Shown piece by piece: positions 28,891 to 59,057 of a stretch of 64,000 nucleotides of DNA. How positions within the stretch are numbered: position 1 is the first letter of the stretch; each line of letters starts with the position of its first letter. This DNA is from Thalassobaculum sp. OXR-137 (lineage in GTDB: Bacteria > Pseudomonadota > Alphaproteobacteria > Thalassobaculales > Thalassobaculaceae). The notes beneath the pieces are model-generated. The model was not told the origin of the DNA, searched no databases, and saw only the letters and a program-made list of their open reading frames with translations. A program made the translations under genes and the position numbers. The stretch covers positions 1 through 64,000 of the forward strand of contig NZ_CP139716.1 in the NCBI RefSeq assembly GCF_034377285.1, given 5' to 3'.

Positions 28891-28897
28891 AGAAAAT

Positions 28898-28925: not shown

Positions 28926-28940
28926 TCAACCGATCGCGCT

Positions 28941-33130: not shown

Positions 33131-33149
33131 AGCGTCTGCCTAACGAACG

Positions 33150-34367: not shown

Positions 34368-34372
34368 CGTTT

Positions 34373-36764: not shown

Positions 36765-36862
36765 GAGCGCGGGAAGATCATGGGAACGGGTCGACTCGTG
36801 CCGGCATTCGCATATAGGAATAAGGGACTGTGTCCGTCAAACTTCCAGGGGTTAACCCGCTT

Positions 36863-37447: not shown

Positions 37448-37468
37448 CCTCGGACACCCGCGGAGGCC

Positions 37469-38548: not shown

Positions 38549-38733
38549 GGGAAACCTTCCGGTAGGGCGATTGCGGTCGGCAACAATACCTTACCAATCC
38601 GCGACGATCCACACATGCCGAGCGGCATATAAGGGTCCGTGCCGGTCAATACTCGCCTCGCTGCGAGACGTCGCGCTTGCCTGGCAGCCCCGATGGTGCA
38701 AGGTGGGGCATTGCTCCATCGTCAGGCAAACCA

Positions 38734-41746: not shown

Positions 41747-42924
41747 CGACCCGCCATGACGGCAACCGCCTGTCTCCAGATGAGATCGCTGGTCACCCGG
41801 ACATCCAAGTATCGCTCAACGTAGCGGCGTCCGGCCTTGCCCATCTCCGACAGGGCTTGCGGCGACATCGCCTGCAACCGCCCGATGCCCTCCGCGATCG
41901 CATTGTCCATCTCGTGCCCGAAAACCACGCCAAACCCCTCGGCCTCGGCATGATCCCAGGCCAGGCCAGCGGCTACCAGCACCGGCCGGTCGCTCGCAAG
42001 CGCCTCGGCGACGACGTTGCCGAAGTTTTCCCGCAGGTCGTCATCCTCGATCCCCGACGGCAGGACCAGGGCGTCGGACTCCTGCAGCACCGCGCGCATC
42101 CCTGCGCGATCCTGCCAACCCAGCAGGCTGACGCCGTGCGTCGCGGCCGCCTCGGCCTCGACCTGCCGGCCATAGTCCCCCTCGCCTACTCCGACGATGC
42201 TGAGCCGGTCGCCCGGACGGCGTTGCGCGGACCAGACCCGCAGAAACCGGCGGATGCCCTTTTCCGGCGAGAACCGCCCGAAGTAGCATAGCGCCATCCC
42301 GCCATCGGCAGCCCGGGGCGGCAGCGGCTGCCAACGCGTCAGATCGACTCCATTCGGAACCACGGTCACCGGCACACCCGGCAGCAGCTCGTCGAGACCC
42401 TTCTCTTCCAAATGGCTCGTTAGGCACAGTCCGCGGGCCCGACGCAGCATCGGAAGTACAAGCCACCGGTACAGATGGCGCTTCAGGGGCTTTCGCGCCT
42501 CGATCACCGCCAGATGCGTGGCCATAAGGCCGGCGTGCGGCATGACCAGCATCGGCCGGCCGAAGGTGACGCAGACGAGCTTGGCTATCAGGGTCGGCCA
42601 GGTTCCGAGCCCACTGACCACCACCAAACGGGCCCCGTGGCACGCCCGGAACACGGCCGGCAGTGCGCCAAGCCCGAATCCCCATTTACGCCCGAAACGA
42701 GATCGGTAGAGCTCGACCGGCACCGTCTCCGGAAGTCCGAGATCCGCAGCCCTTATCGGAGCCCCATGTGAAGCGTCGGAAGCGCAAACACGAAAAGAGC
42801 GGCCATTCTCCGCCAGGGCATTTACCAGGGCGCCGGTCGCCTCGGCGATCCCGCCAAATCCTTTCGACGGCGCGATATGCGTGGTGATGACCGCAAGATC
42901 GATCCCCCCGCCCGTCCTGCTCAT
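41743..42924 (-). CDS. Glycosyltransferase family 4
   Basis: A GT-B enzyme of 393 residues. The N-terminal Gly-rich loop KGFGGIAEATGALVNALAEN near 15-35 positions the acceptor domain. The donor domain shows VPNGVDLTRWQPLPPR near 190, LCYFGRFSPEKGIRRFLRVW near 215, LSIVGVGEGDYG and ENFGNVVAEALASDRPVLVA near 315, the usual EX7E-type region. It heads the three-gene minus-strand run ending in the FkbM gene. The sugar is not predictable from sequence alone. Confidence 0.85.
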   Translation of the reverse strand: MSRTGGGIDLAVITTHIAPSKGFGGIAEATGALVNALAENGRSFRVCASDASHGAPIRAADLGLPETVPVELYRSRFGRKWGFGLGALPAVFRACHGARLVVVSGLGTWPTLIAKLVCVTFGRPMLVMPHAGLMATHLAVIEARKPLKRHLYRWLVLPMLRRARGLCLTSHLEEKGLDELLPGVPVTVVPNGVDLTRWQPLPPRAADGGMALCYFGRFSPEKGIRRFLRVWSAQRRPGDRLSIVGVGEGDYGRQVEAEAAATHGVSLLGWQDRAGMRAVLQESDALVLPSGIEDDDLRENFGNVVAEALASDRPVLVAAGLAWDHAEAEGFGVVFGHEMDNAIAEGIGRLQAMSPQALSEMGKAGRRYVERYLDVRVTSDLIWRQAVAVMAGR

Positions 42925-43209
42925 TCCGTGCCCGCCCTTGTCCGGAGTCTCGTACGAACGATTGACCGTCGCCCGTTGACCTAGTAGCGAAAATATCCTG
43001 CAGACGTAACGGGATTCTCAAGTGCACCAACCGCCGCCGAGACGGTCACCGCAGCGAGGTTCGGGCAATGCCCCCGCTCGGCGCCAACCAAAGCCGCCCG
43101 CTGTCGGCGCGTGTGGGGAAGTCGCCGCATATGGCTGCGGACGACAGGGTCCGCTGGCCGACCTCCGGACGCCGGCGGCGTTTCAAGATGGCATGGCACC
43201 GCTGACACC

Positions 43210-44322
43210 ATGACCCACTCCCTGCGTGTCCTGCTTCTGGTCAGCGACGCCTTCGGCGGGCATGGAGGGATCGCACGGTTCAACCGCGATCTGACGGAAG
43301 CCTTGTCCGCGTCCGGAGCGGTCCGCGAAGTCGTCGTCCTGCCGCGCCGTGTCCCCGAGGCGCCCAAACTGCCATCCGAGGCGATCGTGCAACTCCCGGC
43401 GCCGCAGAACAAGGCGAGCTACTCGCTGCGCGCGCTGCGCACCGCCGCGGACGGGTTCGACGTCGTTGTTTGCGGTCATGTCAATCTGCTGCCGGTCGCC
43501 GCAGCCGCGCGTCTGCTCGCCAGCCGGCCCGGGCGGGCGGCGCGTCTGGCCCTGATCCTCCACGGGGTCGATGCCTGGCAGCCGGTAGCGGTCCCCGGTC
43601 TGTCCGGCGTCGACCTGGTCGTATCGGTCAGCGAGTTCACCATGGAGCGTTTCCTCGACTGGTCCCGTTTCCCACGCGAGCGGTCAGTCGTGCTGCCGAA
43701 CACCTACGACGAGACGCTGCGCCCCGGCCCGAAACCGGCCGACCTCGTCCGCCGCTACCGGCTGGACGGCCGCGACGTCGTGATGATTCTCGCCAGGCTC
43801 GACACCACCGACCGCGGCAAGGGCGTCGCCGAAATGCTGGCCGTCCTGCCGGCACTGGCCCGGGCGCGGCCGACCGTCTCCTACCTGGTCTGCGGAAACG
43901 GCGACGACCGTGCCTGGCTCGCCGACGAAGCCCGGCGCCATGGCGTCCACGACCGGGTCGTCTTTGCCGGTTTCGTCAGCGAGGAGGAGAAGGCCGCTCA
44001 CTACCGGCTCGCCGACGCCTTCGTGCTGTGCGGGCACCAGGAGGGCTTCGGGATCGTCCTCCTGGAGGCCATCGCCTGCGGGATTCCCGTTGTCGCCTCC
44101 GTTGCGGACGGGTCGCGCGAAGCGGTGCTGGGCGGCGAACTCGGCGAACTCGCCGATCCGGCCGACCCCGAGAGCCTGCGCGACGCGGTGCTTCGCGCGC
44201 TGGGCCGACCGACAGAGGACCACAGGGCCCGGCTCGCCGCGGCATTCGGGCGAGACGTCTTCACTGAACGTGTCACAGGGATCGTGGAACGGCTCCGCGC
44301 GCCCGATGCGACCGCGGACTGA
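43210..44322 (+). CDS. Glycosyltransferase family 4
   Basis: A 370-residue GT-B enzyme starting SLRVLLLVSDAFGGHGGIAR, with the Gly-rich acceptor loop at the N-terminus. The donor half has LPNTYDETLRPGP near 165, MILARLDTTDRGKGVAEMLA near 195, YLVCGNGDDRAWLADEARRH, and CGHQEGFGIVLLEAIACGIP near 275 with both conserved Glu residues. The ATG at 43210 is preferred to 43111, which adds a non-conserved stretch. About 285 bases without a recognised gene separate it from the divergent glycosyltransferase. It is tail to tail with the next one. Confidence 0.86.
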   Translation: MTHSLRVLLLVSDAFGGHGGIARFNRDLTEALSASGAVREVVVLPRRVPEAPKLPSEAIVQLPAPQNKASYSLRALRTAADGFDVVVCGHVNLLPVAAAARLLASRPGRAARLALILHGVDAWQPVAVPGLSGVDLVVSVSEFTMERFLDWSRFPRERSVVLPNTYDETLRPGPKPADLVRRYRLDGRDVVMILARLDTTDRGKGVAEMLAVLPALARARPTVSYLVCGNGDDRAWLADEARRHGVHDRVVFAGFVSEEEKAAHYRLADAFVLCGHQEGFGIVLLEAIACGIPVVASVADGSREAVLGGELGELADPADPESLRDAVLRALGRPTEDHRARLAAAFGRDVFTERVTGIVERLRAPDATAD

Positions 44323-44328
44323 GCGGCC

Positions 44329-45510
44329 TCACTCCCGAGCCGGCAGGCCGACGGCACGCACCAGCCCCCGGACGTCCGCATCGATGTCCCATTGCGCAAC
44401 GATCTCCCGGCTCCGCTCGCCCATCGCGCCGGCGAGGCCCGGCGTGAAACAGACCTTCGCAAGCGCCCGGGTGAGTGCCGGCACGTCGTCGACCGGGTAG
44501 ACGAAGCCGTTCTCGCCCTGCCGTACGAGATCCGGAGCGGAACCGACCCGATCGCTGACGACGACGGCCCGGCCGGCGCTCATCGCCTCGTTCACCACCA
44601 GCCCCCAGGGCTCGTACTGCGATGGGAGCACGAAGACGTCGCAGGCCGCATAGAGGCGCACCAGATCCTGCTGCCCCTGGAACCCCAGGAAATGGATGTT
44701 GGCGTCGCCCGCCGCCTGCCTCACGAGCGCATCGCGCATTTCTCCGTCGCCGGCCAGGAGCAGTTGCGGCGCCGGACTACCCGCCGGCGTCTCCAACCGC
44801 CGAAACGCGGCAATCAGCCGGTCCGGGTTCTTCCGGGGCTGAAGCTTCGCGGCGCAGAGCACCACCGGCGTGCCCGGGGCCAGCCCCAACTGCGAACGCG
44901 TCTGCTCGCGGGTTTCGGCGGCGGCCCGGAAATAGCCGTTGTCGACCGCGTAGGGCATCAGGAACAGCTTCGCGTAGGGAATGCCCATGGCGCGATAGTA
45001 CGCGGCATTCAGGGTGCCGATCGCGAGGTAACCGTCGACCAAACGGTCGAGGGCCGCGAAGAAGGCCCGCTTGAACACCCGTTTCGCCGGCCCCCGGTCC
45101 CGGCTAATCGCAGTCGCCTCGTCGCGGATGAGCACACGGACGCCGGCCCGCCGCGCCGCCAGCACCGCCAGCAGATGCGACGGCCGGCTGTATCCGTGGA
45201 TCACGAGCCAGTCGCTCCGCGCTTCTTTCAGCGCTGCCCCCACGCCGCGGACGAAAGGCCGCCACAGGTCGACCACGTCGGTCCGCCCCACCGTCGGCAA
45301 GAACACGCTGCGATAGCCATCCAGCAGGTCGACATCCCAGGCCACCTCGCGGCCGAATCCGGGGTCGTAGTACCCGCGGCTCGACAGGTCCGAGCCGTAA
45401 AGCACGGTCAGGTCGAGGCCCGGAGTCCCGGCGATCCGTCGGAACAGCGGCGCCGCATACTGGATAGGATGGGTGATCAGGAAGGCGACGCGGGTCGGGG
45501 CACCCGTCAT
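44329..45510 (-). CDS. Glycosyltransferase family 4
   Basis: This 393-residue GT-B enzyme begins RVAFLITHPIQYAAPLFRRI. The ITHPIQY start is common in a GT4 subgroup of polysaccharide loci. The donor domain carries VVLCAAKLQPRKNPDRLIAA near 215, LLAGDGEMRDALVRQAAGD, IHFLGFQGQQDLVRLYAACD and VLPSQYEPWGLVVNEAMSAG near 300 with the conserved Glu residues. The ATG at 45510 gives the normal N-terminus; 45582 adds an Arg-rich extension. It is divergent from the nucleotidyltransferase gene that begins the RiPP block, so it marks the right end of the polysaccharide locus. Confidence 0.86.
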   Translation of the reverse strand: MTGAPTRVAFLITHPIQYAAPLFRRIAGTPGLDLTVLYGSDLSSRGYYDPGFGREVAWDVDLLDGYRSVFLPTVGRTDVVDLWRPFVRGVGAALKEARSDWLVIHGYSRPSHLLAVLAARRAGVRVLIRDEATAISRDRGPAKRVFKRAFFAALDRLVDGYLAIGTLNAAYYRAMGIPYAKLFLMPYAVDNGYFRAAAETREQTRSQLGLAPGTPVVLCAAKLQPRKNPDRLIAAFRRLETPAGSPAPQLLLAGDGEMRDALVRQAAGDANIHFLGFQGQQDLVRLYAACDVFVLPSQYEPWGLVVNEAMSAGRAVVVSDRVGSAPDLVRQGENGFVYPVDDVPALTRALAKVCFTPGLAGAMGERSREIVAQWDIDADVRGLVRAVGLPARE

Positions 45511-45721
45511 TGATCGCCTCGCCTCCAAGCCGCCGGGCCGTCGCCTTGCGACGGGTCCGCGTGGACAAGCTGCGACAGACATGTGAAGGACGACATGGCA
45601 TGTTTCCGGCGGTCGGGTAGCTATCCGTCTCTAGCACAAACACCGCCCCATCGGTGAAGCAGGAGCGGACGCCATCCACGAGCCGGCCGAAATCGACCGC
45701 CACTATCGGACGAAAGCCCGA

Positions 45722-46897
45722 ATGGAACTGAAGGCCCAACTGCCGCCGGAGATCCGCCTCCTGCTGGACGTCCTTGCCGCCGGCTACGGAACGCCGCTGC
45801 CGCCACCGGCGCCAACGATTGACTGGGACGGGCTGCTCCAATGCGTCCGGCACCACCGCCTGGCACCGATGATGAAACCGCTTCTCAGGCAGCCGGCGCA
45901 CGTTCCGGGGCCGGTCCTGACCCGGCTCGAGAGCCTTTGGCGAAAGGTTGCGATGCAGACGCTGACCACCAATGCCGAGGTTGTTCGCGTCACGGCCGCC
46001 CTGGAGGCCGCCGGCATCGAGGTCCTGGTCCTGAAGGGCCCCGCGCTCGCCGTCCTGCTGCACGGCGACCCGTCCCGCCGATCGATGCGGGACATCGATT
46101 TGCTGGTTCGACCCGGCGCGGCAGAAGCCGCTCGCGCTGTTCTCGCCGACTGCGGCTACGGCCAGCGCCCGGAGATGATCGAGACCCACTACAATGCCGT
46201 CGAGTTGCGCCACCCGAGCCGGCCGCTTCCAATCGAGCTGCACGTGCATCTGGCGGATTCCGAGGCCATCCTGCCGACCTCGGTGCTCCTCCCGTTCGAG
46301 ACCGCCACCGATGTCACGATCGGCGGCAGGACGGTCCGCACACTGGGTCCGGAGGCGGCAACGACCTTCGCCGCATTCCATGGCGGGAAGCATCTCTGGG
46401 CGCGGCTGTTCTGGCTCGCCGACTTCGCGGCGGCAAGCCGCTCGCCGGCCGTCGACTGGGCTGCGGTCACCGATTTGTCGGGCCGACTCGGTATCCTGCC
46501 CCAACTGGAAGTCGGCTTTCTACTGCTGGACCGGTTACTCGGCATGGCCCGGCCGGAAGGCGCACCTGCACCGGGCACCGCCGGCCGCGTCGCCGGCCGC
46601 GTGGTCGCGGCGATACCCGAGATCCTGACCGTCCCGCCGATGGGAGACCATCAAGCGGTCCTGCGCCGGATCGGACCCCTGCGCGCCCTGGGATGGGAAC
46701 TGGCGCTGCAGCGGCACTGGCGGAGCCGCTGGGCGACTCTGAGGTCCCGTCTGCTGCCGACGGAGACCGACCGCGGTCTGGTCGCGCTGCCGGCCCGAAT
46801 GGACTTTCTCTATTACGGGGTGCGGGCGGCGCGGGTCGCTTTTGGCGCTGTCCGTCGGGGATGGACGAACGGACTCAAACTCGGGCGACGTCGCTAA
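45722..46897 (+). CDS. Uncharacterised nucleotidyltransferase (NTP_transf_5 type) of an HprK/PqqD-linked system
   Basis: A 391-residue protein of the PF14907 type. The helical start (MELKAQLPPEIRLLLDVLAA) and the polymerase-beta-like core VLVLKGPALAVLLHGDPSRR followed by SMRDIDLLVRP are visible; the Asp pair in MRDIDLLV would bind metal. ELHVHLADSEAILP is another family trait. Genes of this family recur beside HprK-related kinases and PqqD-like proteins, which are both encoded within 15 kb here. Its biochemical role is unknown. A nucleotidyl or phosphoryl transfer onto the RiPP or a partner is a guess. It converges with the ABC exporter gene, overlapping by four bases. Confidence 0.78.
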   Translation: MELKAQLPPEIRLLLDVLAAGYGTPLPPPAPTIDWDGLLQCVRHHRLAPMMKPLLRQPAHVPGPVLTRLESLWRKVAMQTLTTNAEVVRVTAALEAAGIEVLVLKGPALAVLLHGDPSRRSMRDIDLLVRPGAAEAARAVLADCGYGQRPEMIETHYNAVELRHPSRPLPIELHVHLADSEAILPTSVLLPFETATDVTIGGRTVRTLGPEAATTFAAFHGGKHLWARLFWLADFAAASRSPAVDWAAVTDLSGRLGILPQLEVGFLLLDRLLGMARPEGAPAPGTAGRVAGRVVAAIPEILTVPPMGDHQAVLRRIGPLRALGWELALQRHWRSRWATLRSRLLPTETDRGLVALPARMDFLYYGVRAARVAFGAVRRGWTNGLKLGRRR

Positions 46898-48681
46898 CCG
46901 GCCCCTAATTCATGAGGTTCCAGCAAGGCCAGCCGACGCAGCCTGCCCCCCGGGCGCGACATAAGCTCCTCCCAGCCCCCCTGTTCGACCAGCCGGCCGC
47001 CGTCCAGCACGACGATCCGATCAGCGTCGCGCACCGTCGACAGGCGATGCGCGATCAGCAGGATCGTCATTTGGCCGCGCAACCGTTCGAGGGTGTCCCG
47101 GATACGCAGTTCGCTCTCCCGGTCGAGATGGCTGGTCGCCTCATCCAGGACCAGCAATGCGGGGTGGCGCAGCAGCGCCTGCGCGATCGCCAGACGCTGG
47201 CGTTCGCCGCCCGACAACGTCGCCCCGCGGTCGCCCAGCGCCGTGTCGAGCCCCTGCGGCAACCGTCGTACGACATCGGCGACGCCAGCATCGTTCAGCG
47301 CCCGCCACATCGCCGGCTCCTCGGCATCAGGGGCCGCCCATACCAGATTGGCGCGCACGCTATCGCCGAGCAGGAACACGTCCTGCGGAACATAGGCGGA
47401 GTGCTGTCTCCAGGCCCGGCGAACCCCACCCTCCAGGGCAAGCCCCCCGACGCTAACCTCGCCATGGCCGGGCACAAGCAGCCCCAGGACCAGTGCCGCG
47501 AGAGTCGATTTTCCCGAACCGGACCGGCCGACCAGCGCGGTCGTGCTGCATTCGGGGATCTGCAGGTCGATACCATCGACCGCCGGTCCCTCGACGGGCG
47601 CGGCCCAGGAGAACGCCACGCCCCGCAGGACGACCGGACCAGCCGGAACCGCTGTCGCGGGCGGCACCGGTTCGGTGGCCGCCCGGCATCGGCGGTGCAT
47701 CTCCTCGGTCTCGGCCCAGGCCGGCAGCATTTCGACGATCGATCGGATCATCTGAATCAGCGAGACGAAGACCGGCAGCAGCCGGATCGGCACGACCGCG
47801 GTCAGCAGCAGAGCCGGCCCGCGCATCCCGAGCCAGGACAGGCAGAGCCAAAGCCCGCCCGCCACCAGGATCGCCTGCGCGGCGCGCAGCGCCAGGAGAC
47901 TCCGCGCCCGCGCCGCCGCCGCCGCTTGAACCGTCCTCACGATTTGGTCGGAAGAGGCCTCGAACAGCGCCGACTGCCGGTCCTCGGCTCCCCAGCTTTT
48001 AGCCATCTGCATGCCCGCGAGATGGTCGGAAACCAGCGTGTGGACCGCCCGACCCACCATCACCTCGGCCCGGCCGTAACCGAGGGCGTTCCTGAACCAG
48101 GGCATCTGCAACGCAGCGAGGATCGCGCCGCCGAACACGACCAGGAGCCCGCCCCAGGGATCCACCAGGAGCGCCATTCCCAGATAGGTCAGGACCACGA
48201 GGACCTGGGTAGCGGCCTGGAGCATCCGGGCCGTTCCCAGCATGACCCGCCCCTGCAACTCGGTCAGCATGTGGAAGATATGCGCCGACCTGTATTGCAC
48301 GAAGGCCTGCCACTCCATGCCCGCGATCGCTCCAAATAGGCGGATTCGGCACCGATGGGCGAACCCGTGCTGGATTGCCACGGACTCCCGCTCGCGCCAC
48401 GCCGCGAGCACGCCGTAGGCGATCACGATGCCCACCCAGATCGTCAGCGTTCCGCCGAGACCGATGCGATCGGGGAGACCCTGAGCGAACTTGACGAGTC
48501 CGGACGGGTCATCGCCGGCGGCCCCGATCGCGCCCGCGAGCAGCGGCACCAGAAGCAGGACGGCAGCCCCTTCTGTCAGCGCCATGCCGGCACCCACGGC
48601 GAGCACCAGCACAATACGCCGTGGCCCGGTCGCCCACAGGGACAGAAGCAGGGATCGCGACAAGCTCGCGGATACACTCAT
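46894..48681 (-). CDS. ABC exporter, fused permease and ATPase (candidate peptide exporter)
   Basis: A half-transporter of about 595 residues with six membrane helices (residues 20-320) and an ATPase domain. TALVGRSGSGKSTLAALVLG is Walker A, ATLSGGERQRLAIAQALLRH the signature, and LLVLDEATSHLDRES Walker B. The H-loop is LIAHRLSTV. No N-terminal C39 peptidase domain is present, so the leader must be cut by another enzyme, as in lasso systems where B2 does so. It sits at the edge of the lasso-like cluster and is the natural exporter of its product, but a role in glycan export cannot be excluded. The ATG at 48681 is preferred to 48708. Confidence 0.82.
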   Translation of the reverse strand: MSVSASLSRSLLLSLWATGPRRIVLVLAVGAGMALTEGAAVLLLVPLLAGAIGAAGDDPSGLVKFAQGLPDRIGLGGTLTIWVGIVIAYGVLAAWRERESVAIQHGFAHRCRIRLFGAIAGMEWQAFVQYRSAHIFHMLTELQGRVMLGTARMLQAATQVLVVLTYLGMALLVDPWGGLLVVFGGAILAALQMPWFRNALGYGRAEVMVGRAVHTLVSDHLAGMQMAKSWGAEDRQSALFEASSDQIVRTVQAAAAARARSLLALRAAQAILVAGGLWLCLSWLGMRGPALLLTAVVPIRLLPVFVSLIQMIRSIVEMLPAWAETEEMHRRCRAATEPVPPATAVPAGPVVLRGVAFSWAAPVEGPAVDGIDLQIPECSTTALVGRSGSGKSTLAALVLGLLVPGHGEVSVGGLALEGGVRRAWRQHSAYVPQDVFLLGDSVRANLVWAAPDAEEPAMWRALNDAGVADVVRRLPQGLDTALGDRGATLSGGERQRLAIAQALLRHPALLVLDEATSHLDRESELRIRDTLERLRGQMTILLIAHRLSTVRDADRIVVLDGGRLVEQGGWEELMSRPGGRLRRLALLEPHELGAG

Positions 48682-49147
48682 CGACAGCGGTCTCGCGGGT
48701 CTGACCAAGGGGCGCTTCTAGCATGCGTCAGCGGTCGTCGGGGGACAATCCGACACCGTCCCGGCAGGATCGCCAGGGCGCCCGTCGCTGCCGAGCACCC
48801 GGCACGGGTCGCGGCATGGCACGCGCGGGGTCTGACGCTCGGTGTGAGCAACAGTGTCTTCGAATTAACCTGCACCAAGGCTAACATGGATCGCCGGCTG
48901 ATCCTCCCCCAGTGAATTGGTCCACCTGTATGTTTGGGAAAACGGAGGATTGGTCCTGAACGCGATCCAGGGCGATCTCTTCCAGGTCAAAGGGGCGCCG
49001 ACCAGACGCGGGAACGTCGGAAAACAGCGGGGCTCGAGCGGTAAGTGTTCCCGTGTTGCACCCCACGGGCCCCCGATCATATCTTTGCGATGTCGTCGTT
49101 CCGCTCGACATGTTCGCTTGCCGCAATTGGGAACAAGGTTAGAGGTA
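48682..49147. other. Intergenic region with an IS3-type end
   Basis: About 470 bases lie between the exporter and the first PqqD gene, with no convincing gene. The only recognised element is a 47-base stretch at 48899-48945 that resembles the start of the IS3 remnant at 59389. The remaining sequence shows no recognised repeat or family. Confidence 0.5.
48899..48945 (+). mobile_element. IS3-type terminal sequence (solo end)
   Basis: TGATCCTCCCCCAGTGAA and the following 30 bases (to TATGTTTGGGAAAACGG) match, at roughly four of five positions, the sequence at 59389-59435 that leads into an IS3 orfA remnant. No orfA follows here. It is in the same orientation as the right-hand copy, so the two bracket the RiPP block. 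Confidence 0.6.
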
Positions 49148-49444
49148 ATGCTTGAAATCGATCCTGGGGCGCGCGTGGTTCGCAATCCGTTGGTTCTCAC
49201 GGCCGAACTCGATGGCCAAGTCGTGCTGATGAGCATGGAGCAAGGATGCTACTTCGGCCTCGATCCGGTTGGTGGCGACATATTCCAGCGTTTGGAACAG
49301 CAAAAGACGGTCTCCGCACTGATATCCGAACTCGAAGACGACTACGATGCAGCCGATGGAGAGATCAACCAGGATACGATGGAATTGCTGAAGATCTTGG
49401 TCGACAATAAACTTGTTACAGTTTGCGATATTTCCGAGGCGTGA
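49148..49444 (+). CDS. PqqD-family protein (RiPP recognition element, B1-like)
   Basis: The 98-residue protein has the PqqD pattern: an N-terminal pair of strands (LTAELDGQVVLMSMEQGCYF), the turn GLDPVGGDIFQRLEQQK, and helices through VSALISELEDDYDAADGEIN and ELLKILVDNKLVTV. PqqD-like proteins bind leader peptides and hand them to processing enzymes; in split lasso systems B1 does this for B2. The ATG at 49148 follows AGAGGT. It converges with the B2 gene 200 bases away. A second PqqD-like gene lies at 58767-59057, so the cluster may have two leader readers. Confidence 0.85.
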   Translation: MLEIDPGARVVRNPLVLTAELDGQVVLMSMEQGCYFGLDPVGGDIFQRLEQQKTVSALISELEDDYDAADGEINQDTMELLKILVDNKLVTVCDISEA

Positions 49445-49652: not shown

Positions 49653-50138
49653 CTACCGCTTCAGATCGGCGATGGGCGTGTAGCGCTCCGCCTCTTCGCC
49701 GCCAAGGATCGGTACTGGTCCAAGCATCAACCACGCATGCGCATGCACCCGATTCCGGTCCAGCTTGACGCCGAATCGTACGACACCGCCGCGAATGCCC
49801 CGCCGGTCGAGAAGCAAGCGGCCGGCAAGAGCGCGGACCAAACACGTGCTGCTCCAGGGGAGGAGTTCGGCGACCCAATTCAATCGACGCATTACCGAAA
49901 GGACCCGCGCCAATTCGGCTTTGTCCACCGCCGTGGCGAGCGTGGGCGCATCCACCCGACCAAAAAGTCGCTTCATCCACGCCGTCGGAAGGAGGAAAAC
50001 GATTCCCCACGCCAGAACCAAGGCGAGGGCGGCTTCAGCCCGCCTCAATCGCGCGATCATCGCCAGCCTTCCACTCCGCCACCTTCTCTCCCAAACGTCG
50101 GTCGCCCGATCTTTACATTTTTGCCCGCGGCGGGACAT
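49653..50138 (-). CDS. Lasso-peptide B2-type leader peptidase (transglutaminase-like), start uncertain
   Basis: This resembles lasso B2 proteins, Cys proteases that remove the leader. The catalytic Cys is in PWSSTCLVRALAGRLLLDRR (about residue 99) and the His in VHAHAWLML (about 134). Most B2 proteins have an Asp-Gly shortly after HAW; here it reads LMLGPVPILGGE, so the usual triad Asp appears to be missing. The open frame continues upstream into an IS256 transposase remnant (to 50429), so the true start is unclear: ATG 50138 gives 161 residues, ATG 50060 gives 135, closer to normal. The insertion may have removed its own promoter. Confidence 0.75.
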   Translation of the reverse strand: MSRRGQKCKDRATDVWERRWRSGRLAMIARLRRAEAALALVLAWGIVFLLPTAWMKRLFGRVDAPTLATAVDKAELARVLSVMRRLNWVAELLPWSSTCLVRALAGRLLLDRRGIRGGVVRFGVKLDRNRVHAHAWLMLGPVPILGGEEAERYTPIADLKR

Positions 50139-50274
50139 CGCAATGCCCAATCGCGAGCTGTATGACTCAAACGGCCTAGCCGGGAAGTATCCGGTTGCCG
50201 TACCGAACCGCGACATCGCATTGAGATGACCGACAGGCCAACGCATACTGAAGATGAGATTGAGGTCACGCTCG

Positions 50275-50486
50275 AGATGATCCATCTCGGCGTTCAAGGC
50301 GCGCTCGGCCAGAGCCTTCTTCAGCTGATCGAGCAGACCGTCAGCCTCGAAAGCCGTTCGGGCGTCCGCTCCGACGAGTAATTGGTCAAGAACGGCATAG
50401 GCAATCACAGGCGCTTTGCATCGGGGCATGGGAGATCTCCTTCATTCCCATCATGCTCCCCCGCACACAAAATTTCTGACAGTCCC
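50275..50486 (-). mobile_element. IS256-family remnant (terminal repeat plus transposase N-terminus)
   Basis: On the minus strand GGGACTGTCAGAAATTTTGT (from 50486) is an IS256-type terminal repeat. About 55 bases later an ATG opens PVIAYAVLDQLLVGADARTA and GLLDQLKKALAERALNAEMD, the N-terminus of IS256 transposases. Similarity stops after NAEMDH near 50275, where the B2 upstream region begins. The element landed inside the IS6-type transposase gene and then lost its other end. Confidence 0.75.
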
Positions 50487-50842
50487 CATTAGCTTCAGGG
50501 CCGCCCGCTTATCGCGTCGGTTCAGCATAAGGATGTCCAGCACTTCACCCTCCGCATCGACCGCCCGCCAAAGATACATCATCCGTCCGCCGATGGAGAC
50601 GAAGACCTCATCCAGGTGCCACGTATCACAGGGCCGCAGCCGCCTTGATTGGAGCCGACGGGCGTAGGCCGGCCCAAATTTGGCAACCCAGCGCCGCACC
50701 GTCTCGTAGCTCACATCGAGACCTCGCTCAGCCAGGAGATCCTCGAAGTCGCGCAGGCTGAGGTTAAAGCGTAGATACAGCCAGACGGCGTGCTGGACGA
50801 TCGACGGCGAATAGTGCAGGCGGGCGTATGAGATTGGCTTCA
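50487..50842 (-). pseudogene. IS6-family transposase, truncated
   Basis: The N-terminal 119 residues of an IS6-type transposase remain: ARLHYSPSIVQHAVWLYLRF, LSLRDFEDLLAERGLDVSYE with TVRRWV, the first catalytic Asp in DTWHLDEVFVSI and the second in WRAVDAEGEVLDI. The protein breaks off at RRDKRAALKLM, before the third catalytic residue, exactly where the IS256-type repeat begins. Family members have about 235 residues, so half is gone. Confidence 0.85.
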
Positions 50843-50871
50843 TGAGGCCAGGATACCGTCCGATACCGGCG

Positions 50872-51669
50872 TCAGCCATGAGCTCCTGTGACAGCGTCCA
50901 CCCGATCAGTTCGGGAGAGGGCACCAGCGGTCGGCTCGTCCGGCCACTCCATCTCCCACAGGGAGTCCGGTGCCGTACGCAGGATCTCGAAGTATCGGCG
51001 CGCCGGCATCGCCTGGTACCAACGCAAGTATTGCGCGGGCACTTCGTTGATCTGGAACCGGTAGAGGGTATGGTCGATATTCTCCACCGCCTGCCGGAGA
51101 GACGCCGCGTCAGGGCTAAGCCCCGCATGCCCGGCGATCTTGTCCACAAAGGCGCCCGGGTCTTCCAGATGCTCGTGATAGCCGACAAAGCGGATTCGCG
51201 GGATCAACTCCGGATGGCCCTCCCGGACGAAGCGCACGACCTTGCCGATACCGAATGTCCAATTGCGCAGCGAGCGGGTGATCTCGACGAAGTGCTCCTG
51301 CGTGCCCACCTGTTTGCGACGGAACGCTGCATTGGCCGACAGCGCCTGTTCCAGCGGATGGCGGTAGGTGATGAAAATCGCCGGCCGCACCTCGGAGAAC
51401 CATGCCCACTGCTCGCCTCCGCCCTCGAAGGTCGAAAACAACAGCACCTTCACCGCCGCATCAGCCAGCTCCTCGCGATACTTCTCCCGCCGCTCGACGG
51501 TCAGACCATGATCGCGGATCTCCGGGATGTCCCAGAACCCCCGCGGGTTCAGCGCCTGCCGGCAGTTGCTGTCGAAGCGGCCCAGCATGGGCATGCCGAG
51601 GATACGCAGGGTCTGGGCCAGCAGCGAGGAGCCCGATCGTGGCTGGAACAGGATGAGGCACAGGGTCAT
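50872..51669 (-). CDS. Sulfotransferase (second of two in the cluster)
   Basis: A 265-residue protein with the PAPS-binding P-loop LILFQPRSGSSLLAQTLR at about 5-22. AIFITYRHPLEQALSANAAF near 95 has the Arg and Ser-like positions of the 3'-phosphate site. The middle region (GKVVRFVREGHPELIPRIRF, VGYHEHLEDPGAFVDKIAG) fits sulfotransferase folds. It would move sulfate from PAPS to a hydroxyl. The gene is the last in order before the IS remnants. Its C-terminus (RTDRVDAVTGAHG) ends 30 bases before the IS6 gene and may have been altered by that insertion. The likely target is the RiPP or a sugar. Confidence 0.75.
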   Translation of the reverse strand: MTLCLILFQPRSGSSLLAQTLRILGMPMLGRFDSNCRQALNPRGFWDIPEIRDHGLTVERREKYREELADAAVKVLLFSTFEGGGEQWAWFSEVRPAIFITYRHPLEQALSANAAFRRKQVGTQEHFVEITRSLRNWTFGIGKVVRFVREGHPELIPRIRFVGYHEHLEDPGAFVDKIAGHAGLSPDAASLRQAVENIDHTLYRFQINEVPAQYLRWYQAMPARRYFEILRTAPDSLWEMEWPDEPTAGALSRTDRVDAVTGAHG

Positions 51670-51771: not shown

Positions 51772-52296
51772 TCATTGCGTCGGCGAAAGGATCAGCAGCC
51801 GGTTGAAGTGTGGCTCCACCTCGCTGATCACCCGCGTCGTGGCCTCGTCGAGCAGTTGGAAACGGCCACCGTAATCCGGCCGCCATTCGGGCGCGCAGGA
51901 ATAAACACAGCGCAGGATGGGGCGCGCCGTCAGGTCGGTGTGACTGTTGAGAAAGTGGTCGGGGTAGCGGTAGCGGCGCATGCTCAATTTGCGCCCCGGT
52001 TCGCCGACGGGGAAATCGGTGAGGGCTTCGAGCAGGCGTCGGAACGAGAGACTGATGACCAGTCTCCTGAGCAGCAGATAGCGCAACGTGTTGAGGGCCA
52101 TTTCGTGACCCTGGCGGATGCCGGCCCCCTTGAGACAGGAGATAAGCGGCTCCGACCTCCCCGCGACCCCGGCCTCGTCCTCTGTGTAATCCCGAAACTG
52201 CGGCTCAAGCTGGGCGTCCGTGTCCAGGAACGCCGACAACTCTATGGCCTTCGCCGGGTCGAGGAAGTCGTCCAGGACCACCAGACGCTCGTCCAA
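51772..52296 (-). CDS. 2OG-Fe(II) oxygenase-like protein, probably truncated at the C-terminus
   Basis: The 174-residue frame starts at a TTG. The iron motif His-X-Asp is in FLNSHTDLTARPILRCVYSC (His119, Asp121), followed by EWRPDYGGRFQLLD and EPHFNRLLILSP, the usual order of prolyl-hydroxylase-like oxygenases. In that family the second iron His and the 2-oxoglutarate Arg come after this point, but a stop ends the protein at SPTQ. The other frames just downstream read NDFYQSPG and MSRTFPLFPRLLPFM, which look like pieces of the missing tail. I therefore suspect small deletions and loss of activity. If active it would hydroxylate the peptide. Confidence 0.6.
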   Translation of the reverse strand: MDERLVVLDDFLDPAKAIELSAFLDTDAQLEPQFRDYTEDEAGVAGRSEPLISCLKGAGIRQGHEMALNTLRYLLLRRLVISLSFRRLLEALTDFPVGEPGRKLSMRRYRYPDHFLNSHTDLTARPILRCVYSCAPEWRPDYGGRFQLLDEATTRVISEVEPHFNRLLILSPTQ

Positions 52297-52411: not shown

Positions 52412-53251
52412 TTACGGCAGGTAGCCGTATCGCGCCATTTCCTCGCCGTGTGCTTCGACGATACGCGCCACCTGAGGCGCTGAGAGCTCGGAACGCCAAG
52501 CGGCCGGCGAACCACGGCGAAAGAAACGCTTGTCCCGATCGTGGGAGCCGACGAACCCGTCGCGCGCCTCCTGCCGTTGCAACTGATCGAAACGGTGGCT
52601 GCCCAAGGCGCTCTCCACGACTGGCCCGTCATCGGGGAGCCCCAGGAACCGGGCCATCGACGTCAATGTGCGGTGGCCGTCTTCGAGCAGATCCTCATAC
52701 CGGACAATCAAAATATCGAGGCCACTCTCGCGCCAGGAACGCACATGCCGGCTCCAGGAGCCGAGAAAGGCCGGAAAGTTCGAACCGTGGGAGATATCTG
52801 TGCCGACCCCCAGAGCGTTGTGTGGATCGGCCAACTGATCGATCGCCCGGTCCAACGACAGCCCCATAAAGTCGGCGTAGGAGGGTACTACCGACAACGG
52901 GTTGCGCACCATGTAGAGCACCCGCTCGATGGTCGACGGCGGAAGGAAGAGTTCGGCATCGGCAGCATCGGGATAGGCGGCGTGGGTCGACCCGAACACG
53001 GTGCGCGCCGTGCCATCCTCATGCAGCGCGCGCAGGGCGCGACCCTGCAATCTCCGCTGCCACTCCTTCGGCAGGTCGACGGTCTCCATCATCAACTGCT
53101 CGTCGACCCAATACCGATAGGACAGGTGGATTGTAAGCGAGACTCCGTTGATGCTGATCCCGGCTCCGCCCTGGCGCAGGCTTTCCAGCAGGATGCGGGT
53201 CCAGGTCGTGCCCGACTTGGGATAGGTTGCTATGAGGTTGATCTTCGCCAC
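52412..53251 (-). CDS. Sulfotransferase (first of two in the cluster)
   Basis: A 279-residue enzyme with a standard sulfotransferase set: NLIATYPKSGTTWTRILLES (5'-phosphosulfate loop, 5-24), VLYMVRNPLSVVPSYADFMG near 111 (3'-phosphate site), and the C-terminal HDRDKRFFRRGSPAAWRSEL near 241, equivalent to the RKGxxGDW motif. It should transfer sulfate from PAPS to an alcohol. It lies 23 bases after the second HPr-kinase-like gene on the same strand, inside the lasso-like operon, so a Ser or Thr of the peptide is a plausible acceptor. The paralogue at 50872 has a different P-loop. Confidence 0.86.
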   Translation of the reverse strand: MAKINLIATYPKSGTTWTRILLESLRQGGAGISINGVSLTIHLSYRYWVDEQLMMETVDLPKEWQRRLQGRALRALHEDGTARTVFGSTHAAYPDAADAELFLPPSTIERVLYMVRNPLSVVPSYADFMGLSLDRAIDQLADPHNALGVGTDISHGSNFPAFLGSWSRHVRSWRESGLDILIVRYEDLLEDGHRTLTSMARFLGLPDDGPVVESALGSHRFDQLQRQEARDGFVGSHDRDKRFFRRGSPAAWRSELSAPQVARIVEAHGEEMARYGYLP

Positions 53252-53274: not shown

Positions 53275-54195
53275 CTAAAGGATGCCCAACGTTTCCCAGT
53301 GTCGGTAAAGCAGCCGGTAGGCATCCGGCAACCGCTCGTACCGCGAGGGGAGGGCGAAGTAGTGGATCGGGACATGCCGGCCAAGCGCCATCTGAATGGG
53401 GAACCCGGTAGGGTGACTACCGAGCGCCCGCTGGAGCAACGGTCGGTAGCTGACTTCAGCAACCAAGCCGACCTTTTTGCTACCTGACAACTGGGCAAGA
53501 TCGGGGTCGGCACGACGCTGAGGTAGCACGACGTAGAGCGCGGCAACCGGGCGCTGCCCTAGTCCCGCCTTCAACCCAGGGTCCCAGCTTCTCCGCAACG
53601 TCCCTTCGGTGGGAAAATCTATGGCCGCTTCATCCAGGCCGAGACCGGCCACCGTCTCCGGCCAGAGTCGGAGTCGCTCCGTCGTCGGCAGGGCGACCGG
53701 CCCCTGCCGTGCGTCCAGATCGACCGGCACCACACCGTCGGCAATCGGGGCAAAACCTTCCAACGCCAAACTCGCCGCCAAGGTCGATTTGCCGACTCCA
53801 GACGCGCCGGCGATCAGCACCGCGGAGTCGCCCACGACCACCCCGTTGGCCTGCAGCGGCAGCAGGCCCCGCTGGTGGCAAAGGATGCCGAAGAGGGTGG
53901 AGACCAGGGCGGAGCCGGCCAGCGCCACGTCGCGGTCGTCGGCGGCCTCGACCACGATCCGCCCCCCACCGACCAGATAGCGTGGTCCCAGAGGGGGGCG
54001 GAGCAGCACCAGGCCGTCGCGCCGCCGGACCTGGAGGTGGCGAGTGCGATACTCCGCCTCGGCCAACCCCATGGGGACCTCACCGTGTTCGACGACGACG
54101 TCAGCCACGCTGCCGCAATCGTCCTCCAGCGGCACGAACCCGGGCAGCGGTATCGCGGAACGCCAGCGTTGCTCGGCGATCAGGTAGGTGGACAT
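53275..54195 (-). CDS. HPr-kinase-related protein 2, divergent active site
   Basis: A 306-residue HprK-like protein. The ligand region LLPLQANGVVVGDSAVLIAG leads into the P-loop GASGVGKST (130-138). Two deviations stand out against the paralogue at 56514: the segment that reads LHASGV there reads LQANGV here, losing the His, and the second Asp of the Walker B-like pair (CDD there) is Gly here (IADGVVPV). It may be a weak kinase, a phosphorylase or a partner subunit. The ATG at 54195 is preferred to 54225. It lies 56 bases after the cyclase gene and before the sulfotransferase gene. Confidence 0.78.
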   Translation of the reverse strand: MSTYLIAEQRWRSAIPLPGFVPLEDDCGSVADVVVEHGEVPMGLAEAEYRTRHLQVRRRDGLVLLRPPLGPRYLVGGGRIVVEAADDRDVALAGSALVSTLFGILCHQRGLLPLQANGVVVGDSAVLIAGASGVGKSTLAASLALEGFAPIADGVVPVDLDARQGPVALPTTERLRLWPETVAGLGLDEAAIDFPTEGTLRRSWDPGLKAGLGQRPVAALYVVLPQRRADPDLAQLSGSKKVGLVAEVSYRPLLQRALGSHPTGFPIQMALGRHVPIHYFALPSRYERLPDAYRLLYRHWETLGIL

Positions 54196-54251
54196 GGCAG
54201 TGTGGCGGTCAATGATGGCAACCATCCAACGCTCAACCGGTGCCCATTGGA

Positions 54252-56218: not shown

Positions 56219-56401
56219 CTACGAAACGTGCGCCGCCTGCCCGGAGCTAAAAGTAGAGGGTCCCAGCGTGTTTTCTATCGGCAGGAGACTCAGCCGCGGC
56301 GCCGACCAGGGGCGGCGCTCACCGGTGGAGACCGGTGCGTCTCCAAGGGAGGTCTCTGAGTCACTGGCGATGGCAGCCGGGTTTTGATCTTTGTCGTCCA
56401 T
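56219..56401 (-). CDS. Candidate lasso-like RiPP precursor peptide
   Basis: A 60-residue peptide. The leader holds RPWSAPRLSLLPIENTL: Trp32-x-x-Pro35-x-Leu37 corresponds to the YxxPxL motif read by B1/PqqD proteins, and Thr45 is the conserved Thr at position -2. Cleavage after Leu46 would give the core GPSTFSSGQAAHVS. Leader and the first core residues resemble paeninodin (QTMAGPGTSTPD as I recall). Like paeninodin the core ends in Ser, the residue its HPr-kinase homologue phosphorylates. Unlike any standard lasso core there is no Asp/Glu at 7-9 (Ser-Gly-Gln). The ATG at 56401 follows a purine-rich GAAGAGAG. It sits between a kinase and the cyclase gene. Confidence 0.72.
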   Translation of the reverse strand: MDDKDQNPAAIASDSETSLGDAPVSTGERRPWSAPRLSLLPIENTLGPSTFSSGQAAHVS

Positions 56402-56513: not shown

Positions 56514-57440
56514 TCACCCGGGTAGGCTGGGGGTCAACGACACATCATCCGCCAGGGTGTCGAGCGACGCCTCCATCCCCGCCAACGACCAGGGGCGGAT
56601 ATAGCGGCGCAGGAACACCTTTTCTGCGACCCGCGCGCACCGGGTGAAGTGGGTCTGAAAATCGCCGGTTCGACGGACCTGTCCCCCACGGTAGGTATTG
56701 GCCACCAGCAGCGCGACGCCGCGCGCGCCACCCACCGATTGAACGACGGCGGGTTCGCCGGCCTCCCCTCGCTCCAGAAAATAGATCCGCCGCAGCGGTA
56801 ACGGCCGACGATGAAAGGTGTCATGGAGCTGGAGGTGGTACTTCTCGGCCCGAATCCAGTCGCGGCTCAGCACGGTCGGATCGAGAGCGAAATGGTCGAG
56901 GGCGTCGCGCCACAGCTTGATGCGGGGGAAAGCGGGATAGAAGAGCGGGGTTCCTTCGGCATCCGGCACCACCACCCCGACGTCGTCGCAGAGCAACGGA
57001 TGGCCGCGCCGATGGAGTGCGGCGGCCAATGTCGATTTGCCGGCCCCGGAGGGACCGCAAAAGGCGACTGCACCGCCCGCCCATTCGACACCGCTGGCGT
57101 GCAGTGGCAGTCTCCCCTGCTGGTGGAGCAGGGCCCCGAAGACGGTCCCCAGTAGAAAGAGGCGGACCTCTTCTGGAGATGCGTCGGGGAAAGGCTGGAC
57201 GAGAATCGTGCGACCGCCGACGGCACGATAGCGGGCAACCCCCAGGGGCTCGAACTGGAATACACCGTCTCCGATCTGGACTTGGCGTATGACGTGGAGT
57301 GGGGCGTCGAGCAGCGCCGGAATCTCCGCAAGAGATATCTCGACGTCCGTTCGGACGGGAGGATCGGTCGCGATCAGCTCAGGGCACTCCAGCTCGGAAG
57401 CGACGGCGAGGCCATAGACGCTATAGTGGTTGACTGGCAT
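56514..57440 (-). CDS. HPr-kinase-related protein 1 (candidate RiPP kinase)
   Basis: A 308-residue protein of the HprK-related kinase A type. RLPLHASGVEWAGGAVAFCG leads into the P-loop GPSGAGKST (129-137), followed by HPLLCDDVGVVVPDAEGTPL with the Asp pair of the kinase active site, and FYPAFPRIKLWRDALDHF, typical of these RiPP-associated members. Homologues phosphorylate the C-terminal Ser of lasso precursors such as paeninodin. The precursor gene lies 113 bases downstream and encodes a peptide ending in Ser. All expected catalytic residues are present, unlike in its paralogue at 53275. The ATG at 57440 or the TTG at 57449 starts it. Confidence 0.84.
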   Translation of the reverse strand: MPVNHYSVYGLAVASELECPELIATDPPVRTDVEISLAEIPALLDAPLHVIRQVQIGDGVFQFEPLGVARYRAVGGRTILVQPFPDASPEEVRLFLLGTVFGALLHQQGRLPLHASGVEWAGGAVAFCGPSGAGKSTLAAALHRRGHPLLCDDVGVVVPDAEGTPLFYPAFPRIKLWRDALDHFALDPTVLSRDWIRAEKYHLQLHDTFHRRPLPLRRIYFLERGEAGEPAVVQSVGGARGVALLVANTYRGGQVRRTGDFQTHFTRCARVAEKVFLRRYIRPWSLAGMEASLDTLADDVSLTPSLPG

Positions 57441-57756
57441 TGGAGGCAACTGGCTGGGGAAAGATTCCGCTGATCGTTGTTACTAGCATACGCCGCATCC
57501 AGACGCGGACACGATATCCCGCTCTCCGTTTTCGACGCGGCCCCCGACTTATGAAAATGTTTGGCCTCCTTCCGCACAACCGACTGTTCGTGCCTTAAAG
57601 GAGTCGAATACCCTGCTGGCCCGTCGCCAAACGACACATGTCTAACTCGTCGAATGCTGCGGCGGACCGGAGGGAGACACTCCCTTCAAGGCGGGTGGCA
57701 TTTTCGGGAATAATGATACCCTGCGCTATGACACGGTCGATGACGTGGGGAGCACG
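57441..57756. other. Divergent intergenic region of the RiPP cluster
   Basis: About 315 bases separate the first kinase gene and the + strand Cys-rich gene. It probably holds promoters for both arms. I see AT-rich patches near 57475-57485 and 57705-57720 but no clear consensus pair, and no second precursor gene. Confidence 0.45.
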
Positions 57757-58590
57757 ATGAACCGGGGGAAAATGGTTCGCGATGAGCTGATTGCTGCGCT
57801 GGGCGATTCGACGGCCTCACGGGAAATCGCTGGACGCACGCTGGTCGACATCCTGGTGGATGCGGTGGAAGCGGGAAGTGTCGAGTGGACCTCCGACGGA
57901 CGGCTGCGTCTTCCGGCACGGGTTGAGCACGAGGGATCGGCGGAAATCAACAGCCGAGGCACCGAGAATCCAAGACGCCACTATTATCCGTGTTCATTCC
58001 TGAACTTGTTCCTTTTCAGGGAGGTTTATCGACAATCGCTCGTTCCCTTTGGTTGCCGAAATTGTTACAAAGTGAAGGTCGAGGCCAGTTGCGTGGCCGA
58101 GTTGGCGGTTATCCGCGAGATCGCTCCGACCATGCCGTGCCCATCCAAATGTGCCTGTACCTTGAAATATCCCTACAGCGTCGGGGTCTGGAGCGCGTTG
58201 TTCTATGTTGACGGCCTGGAGATGGCTTTCGATGTTCATCGGCAGCTAAAGGTAGCCATTGCGGCTCACCCGCGGCTCACCAATGCCGCGCTGGACGTTA
58301 GCATAAAACGGGGATGCAGCCTGTACGAGGCGCGGCTCGGCCCCTCGGACCAATGGGTGGTCGATGAAACCCTCGAACTGCTGGAGCAGCGGCTCTACTC
58401 ACTGTTCGATCCGCCGCAGGCGCGCGAGGGGGACAAACTGACAGCCTTCATGGGGTGGATTGTATCCGCCCACTCGATTGGCGACGACAGTTATCTGGAG
58501 CTGACCCACGGCAAGCCCATACGGCCGCCGACGCTCGACTATCTGAAAGTGGAACCTCGATTAGAGCGACTGTCGACCAACCCGGGTTGA
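57757..58590 (+). CDS. Cys-rich protein of unknown function in the RiPP cluster
   Basis: A 277-residue soluble protein that I do not recognise. Eight cysteines lie at about 79, 100, 103, 112, 128, 132, 134 and 187 (YYPCSFLNL, FGCRNCYKVKVEASC, MPCPSKCACTLKY, IKRGCSLYE). The CxxC and CxxxCxC groups suggest a bound iron-sulfur cluster or zinc. KVKVEASCVAELAVIREIAP reads like a structured domain between them. The ATG at 57757 is chosen because GGGGAG lies just before it; a GTG at 57745 is the alternative. It is followed by the second PqqD-like gene on the same strand, a pairing often seen between a modifying enzyme and its recognition element. Confidence 0.65.
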   Translation: MNRGKMVRDELIAALGDSTASREIAGRTLVDILVDAVEAGSVEWTSDGRLRLPARVEHEGSAEINSRGTENPRRHYYPCSFLNLFLFREVYRQSLVPFGCRNCYKVKVEASCVAELAVIREIAPTMPCPSKCACTLKYPYSVGVWSALFYVDGLEMAFDVHRQLKVAIAAHPRLTNAALDVSIKRGCSLYEARLGPSDQWVVDETLELLEQRLYSLFDPPQAREGDKLTAFMGWIVSAHSIGDDSYLELTHGKPIRPPTLDYLKVEPRLERLSTNPG

Positions 58591-58766: not shown

Positions 58767-59057
58767 GTGGCGATTGAAATGTCCAGCATCGTGCGTCAAA
58801 GCGGGGGGCAGGTGTCCGCGGAGATCGACGACGAGGTGGTGATGATGAATGTCGAACAGGGTAACTACTACGCACTAGACGAGGTGGGGAGCCGAATCTG
58901 GGCCCTGATCGAGCAGCCCATGGAGGTGTCGGCCCTGTGCGATCGGCTAATCGAGGAGTACGAGGTGGAGCGGGCCGCTTGCGAGATCGACGTGTTGAAG
59001 TTTCTGGACGAACTCTTGGAACAAGGGGGTGTCGAGGTCGAAGGGCAGGCTGGCTAA
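58767..59057 (+). CDS. PqqD-family protein (second RiPP recognition element)
   Basis: The 96-residue protein has the PqqD fold pattern: VSAEIDDEVVMMNVEQGNYY, ALDEVGSRIWALIEQPMEVS, helices with LCDRLIEEYEVERAACEIDV and the last strand ELLEQGGVEVE. It resembles the copy at 49148 in layout but differs in most positions. AGGGAAGGGA before GTG 58767 supports that start; ATG 58779 is possible. It follows the Cys-rich gene and ends the RiPP block. It could present the same precursor to another enzyme, for example the Cys-rich protein or a kinase. Confidence 0.85.
   Translation: MAIEMSSIVRQSGGQVSAEIDDEVVMMNVEQGNYYALDEVGSRIWALIEQPMEVSALCDRLIEEYEVERAACEIDVLKFLDELLEQGGVEVEGQAG

Follow-up and report, generated by a model that had tools for sequence, protein, structure and literature searches.

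The window, which is the whole 64-kb stretch of DNA analyzed here and the first part of a 169-kb contig, appears to carry a lasso-type RiPP cluster in which Gln9 of the core peptide serves as the ring-closing residue instead of Asp or Glu. We give this reading a probability of roughly 0.55. The Gln side chain is proposed as the ring partner because all 14 acid-less precursors found in a survey of cyclase-precursor pairs have Gln at core position 8 or 9. In the accessible text of the sources, a lasso ring is defined by Asp or Glu at positions 7-9 (PMC10368454, PMC8498205) or by Asp or Glu (PMC13352647). The clusters described here may thus close the ring in a way so far undescribed.

The precursor peptide

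The precursor gene (Table 1) translates to MDDKDQNPAAIASDSETSLGDAPVSTGERRPWSAPRLSLLPIENTLGPSTFSSGQAAHVS, and its core is GPSTFSSGQAAHVS (codons 56222-56263). The translation reads Ser7, Gly8 and Gln9, and Asp and Glu are absent throughout the core, as the initial annotation had stated; neither GPSTFSSGQAAHVS nor the core of the orthologue described below has Asp or Glu at positions 7-9. The same annotation had described a lasso-like leader with a W-x-x-P-x-L motif and Thr at position -2, encoded directly before the cyclase gene. This description holds: the leader reads W-S-A-P-R-L, with Thr at -2 and Leu at -1, and the stop codon lies 74 bp before the cyclase start. The leader motif, Thr at -2 and Gly1 are lasso-like features of the precursor. 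A longer reading frame with 15 additional codons, to 56446, is also listed, and the ATG at 56401 is the start common to the orthologue.

A profile of 14 precursors that include the window precursor and its orthologue matches the window precursor at E 4.3e-14, by construction. When the profile is built without these two, the orthologue is matched at E 0.53 and the window ORF is absent among matches to E 5; a wider profile built without both matches the window ORF at E 0.35, and the orthologue is not among its matches. The leader is divergent, and a profile match is no proof of membership by itself, because the matches are insignificant when both sequences are left out. Therefore, membership of the precursor rests on gene context and on the conserved orthologue. 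No NCBIfam model matches the window precursor or any of eight further precursors of the acid and Gln types.

Which residue of this core stands where the ring acid would be expected? The Gln lies at +23 from the leader Trp, which is the place of position 8 in relatives; counting against this reading, the spacing between leader and core is one residue shorter in the window than in other precursors. The initial annotation listed Gln9 yet missed that Gln stands at the place of the ring acid.

That annotation had also named a second, canonical precursor for this cyclase as an observation that would speak against its reading. None was found by motif search in the window or by precursor profile over the whole of contigs C2 and C3 and over two stretches of contig C1 around its AsnB-like genes. 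Similarity searches of both genomes gave weak matches (best E on C1, 0.17) besides a broken copy of the 3' half of the orthologous precursor. The window genome has a single lasso B2 match (PF13471, at E 0.001), and it lies inside this cluster.

Gene content of the cluster

Both lasso maturation proteins, B1 and B2, are encoded in the window and score above their cut-offs (Table 1). The Cys and His of B2 are present, as seen by eye, and its listed ORF extends to 50429 into foreign-looking sequence. Transposase-like remnants, recognized by eye, occupy 50060-51190 between the B2 gene and the gene for sulfotransferase-like protein 2. Two HPr-kinase-like ORFs, both below curated cut-offs, together with a C-terminal Ser would place the cluster in the kinase-type, paeninodin-like group; the final Ser of the core fits the kinase substrate rule to which the initial annotation had appealed. 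Kinase-like protein 1 is 28-39% identical to kinase-like ORFs of related lasso loci and 87% identical to its counterpart in the orthologous cluster, and kinase-like protein 2 is 83% identical to its counterpart there. Relatives of sulfotransferase 1 are found beside lasso cyclases at other loci, and the 2OG-Fe(II)-oxygenase-like gene has no counterpart in the orthologous cluster. Among the compared loci, the conserved Cys-containing protein is present in the orthologous cluster only; its AF2 model (pLDDT 38) is too low in confidence for use. Membership of the three ORFs beyond B2 (the second PqqD-like protein, the ABC transporter and the nucleotidyltransferase-like protein) is uncertain. Genes that read by eye like surface-polysaccharide or sugar-nucleotide genes adjoin the cluster in the window (27000-46000) and in its orthologue (L004:2900-5100). 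As read from the sequence, the cluster resembles a lasso cluster in gene content and falls outside the lasso definition at the ring acid.

Table 1. Features of the lasso-type cluster in the window
Feature	Position	Strand	Evidence or remark
Nucleotidyltransferase-like protein	45722..46897	+	PF14907 3.1e-47
ABC transporter, possible exporter	46894..48708	-	by eye
Second PqqD-like protein (PqqD part, residues 102-167 of 175)	48917..49444	+	PF05402 2.5e-13
Lasso B2 leader peptidase	49653..50060	-	NF033537 64.9 bits, cut-off 33; PF13471 1.2e-18
Sulfotransferase-like protein 2	50872..51669	-	PF13469 2.1e-4, below cut-off; 85% identical in L004
2OG-Fe(II)-oxygenase-like protein	51772..52296	-	PF13640 1.3e-4, below cut-off
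Sulfotransferase 1	52412..53251	-	PF00685 1.4e-20, above cut-off
HPr-kinase-like protein 2	53275..54225	-	Walker A GASGVGKS by eye; HprK_rel_A 3.4e-6, below cut-off
Asparagine-synthetase-like lasso cyclase, 630 aa	54252..56144	-	PP-loop S-A-G-L-D-S-S; PF00733 8e-21, above cut-off
Precursor peptide, 60 aa	56219..56401	-	ORF list and translation; orthologue L004:8640-8819
Codon CAG, core Gln9, proposed ring-closing residue	56237..56239	-	CAA in L004 orthologue, a silent difference
HPr-kinase-like protein 1	56514..57449	-	Walker A GPSGAGKS by eye; HprK_rel_A 1.6e-10, below cut-off
Conserved Cys-containing protein	57745..58590	+	no Pfam match; 81% identical in L004
PqqD-like B1 / RiPP recognition element	58767..59057	+	NF033536 91 bits, cut-off 80

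An orthologous cluster in Novosphingobium beihaiensis

The N. beihaiensis cluster (locus L004) encodes a cyclase 83% identical to that of the window and an orthologous precursor whose core, GPSTFGSGQAAHVS, is likewise free of Asp and Glu. A recent loss of the acid in one strain, against which the initial annotation had set its reading, was therefore not found. A codon-by-codon count between the two precursors gives seven silent changes and one replacing change in the 14 codons of the core, versus seven silent and 20 replacing changes in the 46 codons of the leader (Fisher p 0.003). By this count, the core is under selection.

Both clusters share the gene order PqqD, Cys-containing protein, kinase 1, precursor, cyclase, kinase 2 and the two sulfotransferase-like genes, and these common genes are open in both. 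The L004 contig ends before the place of B2, which is not seen in that cluster; the one PF13471 match of the N. beihaiensis genome lies on another contig. Directly after the intact L004 precursor, at about 8840-8930, stands a broken tandem copy of its 3' half with in-frame stops. No cyclase between 83% and 32% identity was found in overlapping draws of 61, 386, 347 and 397 genomes, in which E limits ranged from 1e-30 to 1e-20 and up to three candidates per genome were scored in the larger draws. A scan of genome contigs with six short patterns found L004 alone, and plasmid records gave no relatives of the cyclase at E 1e-15.

Survey of cyclase-precursor pairs

Survey cyclases came from draws of 347 genomes in the family to which N. 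beihaiensis belongs, supplemented by four further genomes of the class; the loci were 60 of the best places of a longer list, 14 from the family draw and four from the class draw. The resulting 80 cyclase rows include 64 with an assigned precursor, 14 without one and two L011 cyclases that were left out of the pairs and counted as acid-type in the tree. Precursor candidates at L144 and L090, both with acids, were also left out of the 64 pairs. Five assignments are weak, with no or a poor profile score (L044, L088, L126, L136 and L140), and all are acid-type. At loci with several precursors one was counted, and some precursors are encoded on the opposite strand or at a distance of some kb. The core start was fixed at 16 from the leader Trp or Tyr (15 for the window and L004), and positions may accordingly be off by one.

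An acid at core positions 6-10 is present in 50 of the 64 pairs among the matches listed. The remaining 14 pairs all have Gln at 8 or 9 (nine at position 8 and five at position 9), and Gln is scarce elsewhere in these cores; 13 of the 14 are free of acid over the whole core, and L134 has Asp5 (all among the matches listed). Among the acid-bearing cores listed, Gln at 8 or 9 occurs in 9/50, seven of which belong to the Gln lineage described below. The acid-less Gln-type cores range from 14 to 26 residues in length with Gln constant at 8 or 9. When the residues of each core were reshuffled, the placement of Gln gave a log10 P of -11.4 if rows are taken as independent and a P of 0.003 when each lineage was represented by a single row (window, L132, L135). 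Of the explanations that the initial annotation offered for the bond, another bond type agrees with these data through the Gln side chain, and C-terminal activation or the lack of a ring is not retained as the leading idea.

Two surveyed arrangements stand apart from this question. Sulfotransferase-like genes, recognized with a home-made profile, lie beside acid-type cyclases whose precursor cores end in Ser at 12 loci (L009, L010, L011, L046, L053, L054, L103, L107, L109, L112, L121 and L128), and an Asp/Asn hydroxylase-like gene (PF05118) is present at L046 besides. At L051:2909-4796, one cyclase is followed by a row of at least four precursor genes whose cores all differ.

Origins of the Gln-type precursors

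A quick tree of the 80 cyclases was computed with the basic column removed and SH-aLRT support. The window and L004 cyclases fall, on a long stem of 2.0 changes per column, inside a group of acid-type cyclases (26 rows, support 99). A second, larger cyclase lineage, which we call the Gln lineage, contains 21 cyclases (SH-aLRT 100), comprising 18 Gln-type, two acid-type and one without a precursor among the matches listed. With Gln at 8 or 9, it accounts for 18 of the 64 listed pairs (L047, L100, L104, L105, L110, L117, L118, L120, L123, L127, L130, L133, L134, L135, L137, L141, L142 and L145), and 11 of these 18 lack an acid at core 6-10 among the matches listed; in the other seven precursors, Gln is accompanied by an acid at 7 or 9 that could be their ring residue, which counts against Gln as the ring partner. 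Glu8 stands instead in the two exceptions, L146 and L108, the latter being sister to the Gln-type L118 (support 95). Glu8 and Gln8 swap at one position, which therefore behaves as a ring-closing residue would.

An AU test on 28 chosen rows of the 80 rejected a clade of the window and L004 with seven Gln-lineage rows (p-AU 9e-6). As judged from the tree, two or more cyclase lineages have exchanged the acid for Gln. L132, whose precursor lies 780 bp from the cyclase, is a possible third origin.

In 16 of the 18 Gln-lineage loci, the cyclase follows the end of the precursor after 8-50 bp, and the longest ORFs overlap in L120 and L127. The L130 locus contains genes for PqqD, an ABC transporter, a DUF2141 protein and a heparinase-like protein. 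At several Gln-lineage loci, L130 among them, no B2 was seen in the fetched stretch with a home-made profile. A Gln-lineage profile gave three matches at E 1e-90 in 386 genomes of the class, and no precursor was found in the short flanks of these three.

The cyclase

The window cyclase scores 125 bits against the lasso cyclase model NF033535, for which the cut-off is 525. Its PP-loop is intact in S247, G249, D251 and S252, and G248 is replaced by Ala. It differs at columns conserved in other cyclases, such as Glu to Arg at 514 and Arg to Asp at 511. An AF2 model from 30 aligned relatives (pLDDT 81) matches 7ylz, the hydroxyamidotransferase TsnB9, beta-lactam synthetase and asparagine synthetase in Foldseek, with GMP synthetase far down the list (E 0.026). 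According to this model, the fold is that of ATP-dependent amide-forming enzymes. Residue 2 of the cyclase is not a Cys, so the enzyme is not expected to have a glutaminase of its own, a point against ring closure at Gln9.

A conserved basic residue near the cyclase C-terminus probably corresponds to AsnB Lys449, with an uncertainty of one residue. Among the matches listed, 38 of the 45 acid-type rows carry Lys or Arg at this column, and 17 rows, all of them Gln-type, carry His or Tyr; the column is non-basic in 20/21 Gln-type versus 7/45 acid-type rows. When kinship is allowed for, the link between this column and Gln-type precursors is not significant (five independent pairs, most rows being of one lineage), and the sequences give a hint only that the change goes with such precursors. 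In the 80-row alignment, the window cyclase has Asn at this column and the L004 cyclase has Arg. An earlier 23-row alignment, which placed Thr at this column in the window and gave a clean link of Lys loss with acid-less precursors, is superseded by the 80-row alignment, and the link is dropped for this cluster.

Proposed ring closure and alternative products

How would Gln9 be joined to the N-terminus? B1 and B2 would cut the leader off after Thr-Leu, and the asparagine-synthetase-like cyclase, using ATP, would link the Gly1 amine to the Gln9 side chain in a nine-residue ring. The cyclase could adenylate the carboxamide oxygen, which the amine attacks to give an amidine with loss of H2O; or ammonia could be lost before or during closure, giving the usual lactam (-NH3). 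The computed mass difference between lactam and amidine is 0.98 Da: for GPSTFSSGQAAHVS, the calculated [M+H]+ is 1332.6179 as a linear peptide, 1315.5913 as the lactam and 1314.6073 as the amidine (or a head-to-tail ring), with 79.9663 more for a phosphate and 79.9568 more for a sulfate. Phosphorylation of the peptide by the kinase-like proteins would then be probable, with the C-terminal Ser as the likeliest site, and the sulfotransferases would probably add sulfate. Gly1, Gly2 and Glu8 are reported as essential for MccJ25 production in the accessible text of PMC8498205, and ring closure at Gln9 would require a changed enzyme because of this reported need for Glu8. The change to His or Tyr at the basic column, seen in most Gln-lineage cyclases, is also not shared here, where the column is Asn (window) or Arg (L004).

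Is a ring made at all? A cyclase that has drifted into a scaffold or chaperone for the modifying enzymes, leaving a linear, phosphorylated or sulfated product, would agree with the long stem branch, with the changes at conserved columns 514 and 511 and with Asn at the basic column of the window. We consider this rather unlikely, since the PP-loop residues are kept and the core is conserved in two different hosts while the leader drifts; such a product also leaves unexplained both the Gln at 8 or 9 in every acid-less precursor and the Glu8/Gln8 swap within one lineage. That the cluster is decaying and makes nothing, with the core as a relic, is highly improbable: silent changes predominate in the core, and the precursor, cyclase, kinase-like, sulfotransferase-like, PqqD and Cys-containing genes are open in both clusters, even though transposase-like remnants, recognized by eye, lie both between B2 and the rest of the cluster and from 61 kb onward, and L004 lacks the oxygenase-like gene and carries a broken second copy of the precursor 3' half.

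If a ring is made, it need not be closed by the cyclase acting on Gln. In the classical transglutaminase reaction, an amine is coupled to the side chain of Gln, and B2 belongs to a transglutaminase-like family (PF13471); Gln9 might be joined by B2, or first converted to Glu, with an ordinary Gly1-Glu9 lasso as the product. This account overlaps the lactam branch of our preferred reading and differs in that the cyclase itself does not act on Gln. It is compatible with the interchange of Glu8 and Gln8 in one lineage and is nevertheless improbable, given that B2 was not seen in the fetched stretch of several Gln-lineage loci, no deamidase is recognized in the cluster and no reason is evident for keeping such a step in separate lineages. 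A head-to-tail ring of 14 residues, for which the cyclase would activate the C-terminal carboxylate, is less probable still. The C-terminus is the only carboxylate of the core, and closure there would lower the mass by one H2O, just as amidine formation would; however, such a ring needs no constant Gln at 8 or 9, which is kept across cores of 14-26 residues, and kinases of such clusters are known to act on the C-terminal Ser (accessible text of PMC8498205).

Within the preferred reading of ring closure at Gln9, we raise the amidine branch tentatively: on at least two occasions, lasso-type cyclases may possibly have exchanged a Glu or Asp carboxylate for a Gln carboxamide, which they adenylate and which the N-terminal amine attacks to form a ring-closing amidine. 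The PP-loop enzymes GMP synthetase, argininosuccinate synthetase and TilS adenylate an amide or urea carbonyl oxygen, which an amine attacks. These enzymes share the ATP-pyrophosphatase fold class with the cyclase and act on small molecules or tRNA. In the bottromycin macroamidine, the N-terminal amine is joined to an amide carbon, as in the proposed amidine; the bottromycin ring differs in being made by YcaO enzymes on a backbone amide.

Relation to known systems

The Gln-lineage loci (for example L047, L117, L123, L130 and L135) resemble the window in the W-x-x-P-x-L motif, in the cyclase directly after the precursor and in Gln at core 8 or 9 with the acid often absent. Unlike the window, they have a separate cyclase lineage with mostly His or Tyr at the basic column, Val or Ile at -2 and no sulfotransferase in the fetched stretch (18/18, home-made profile). 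Several adjoin a heparinase-like gene, identified by Pfam for L130 and by eye for the others.

As described in the accessible text of PMC8498205 and PMC10368454, the paeninodin, pseudomycoidin and Bradymonas bsf clusters share with the window separate B1 and B2 proteins, an AsnB-like cyclase, an HPr-kinase homologue and a nucleotidyltransferase. The C-terminal Ser of paeninodin is phosphorylated, and the window core also ends in Ser; in Bradymonas bsf, the kinase acts on Ser3 and not on the C-terminal Ser. A sulfotransferase gene is noted in some Firmicutes kinase-type clusters, as in the window (same sources). The window differs from kinase-type lasso clusters, as these sources describe them, in having two kinase-like and two sulfotransferase-like proteins and, above all, in having Gln9 and no acid, whereas their rings use Asp or Glu at 7-9.

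Sphingomonadales precursors with Ile or Val at -2 are noted in the accessible text of PMC10368454, and part of the Gln lineage may therefore stand in its supplement; the full word "glutamine" is absent from its main text. No Gln-type lasso precursor was found in the open literature, which is weak evidence of absence since most subscription journals and preprints lie outside that scope.

Implications

Acid-based core rules, such as the requirement for Gly1 and an Asp at position 8 or 9 applied in at least one published screen (PMC7533575), pass over Gln-type lasso-type peptides. If Gln closes the ring, the enzymes would be new cyclases, and the mass gap between lactam and amidine would be decidable by a mass spectrum. 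If the amidine branch is true, it would give a lasso (or lariat) whose ring is closed by a basic C=N bond and which is made by an asparagine-synthetase fold, and would show one ATP-dependent fold shifting from carboxylate to carboxamide activation.
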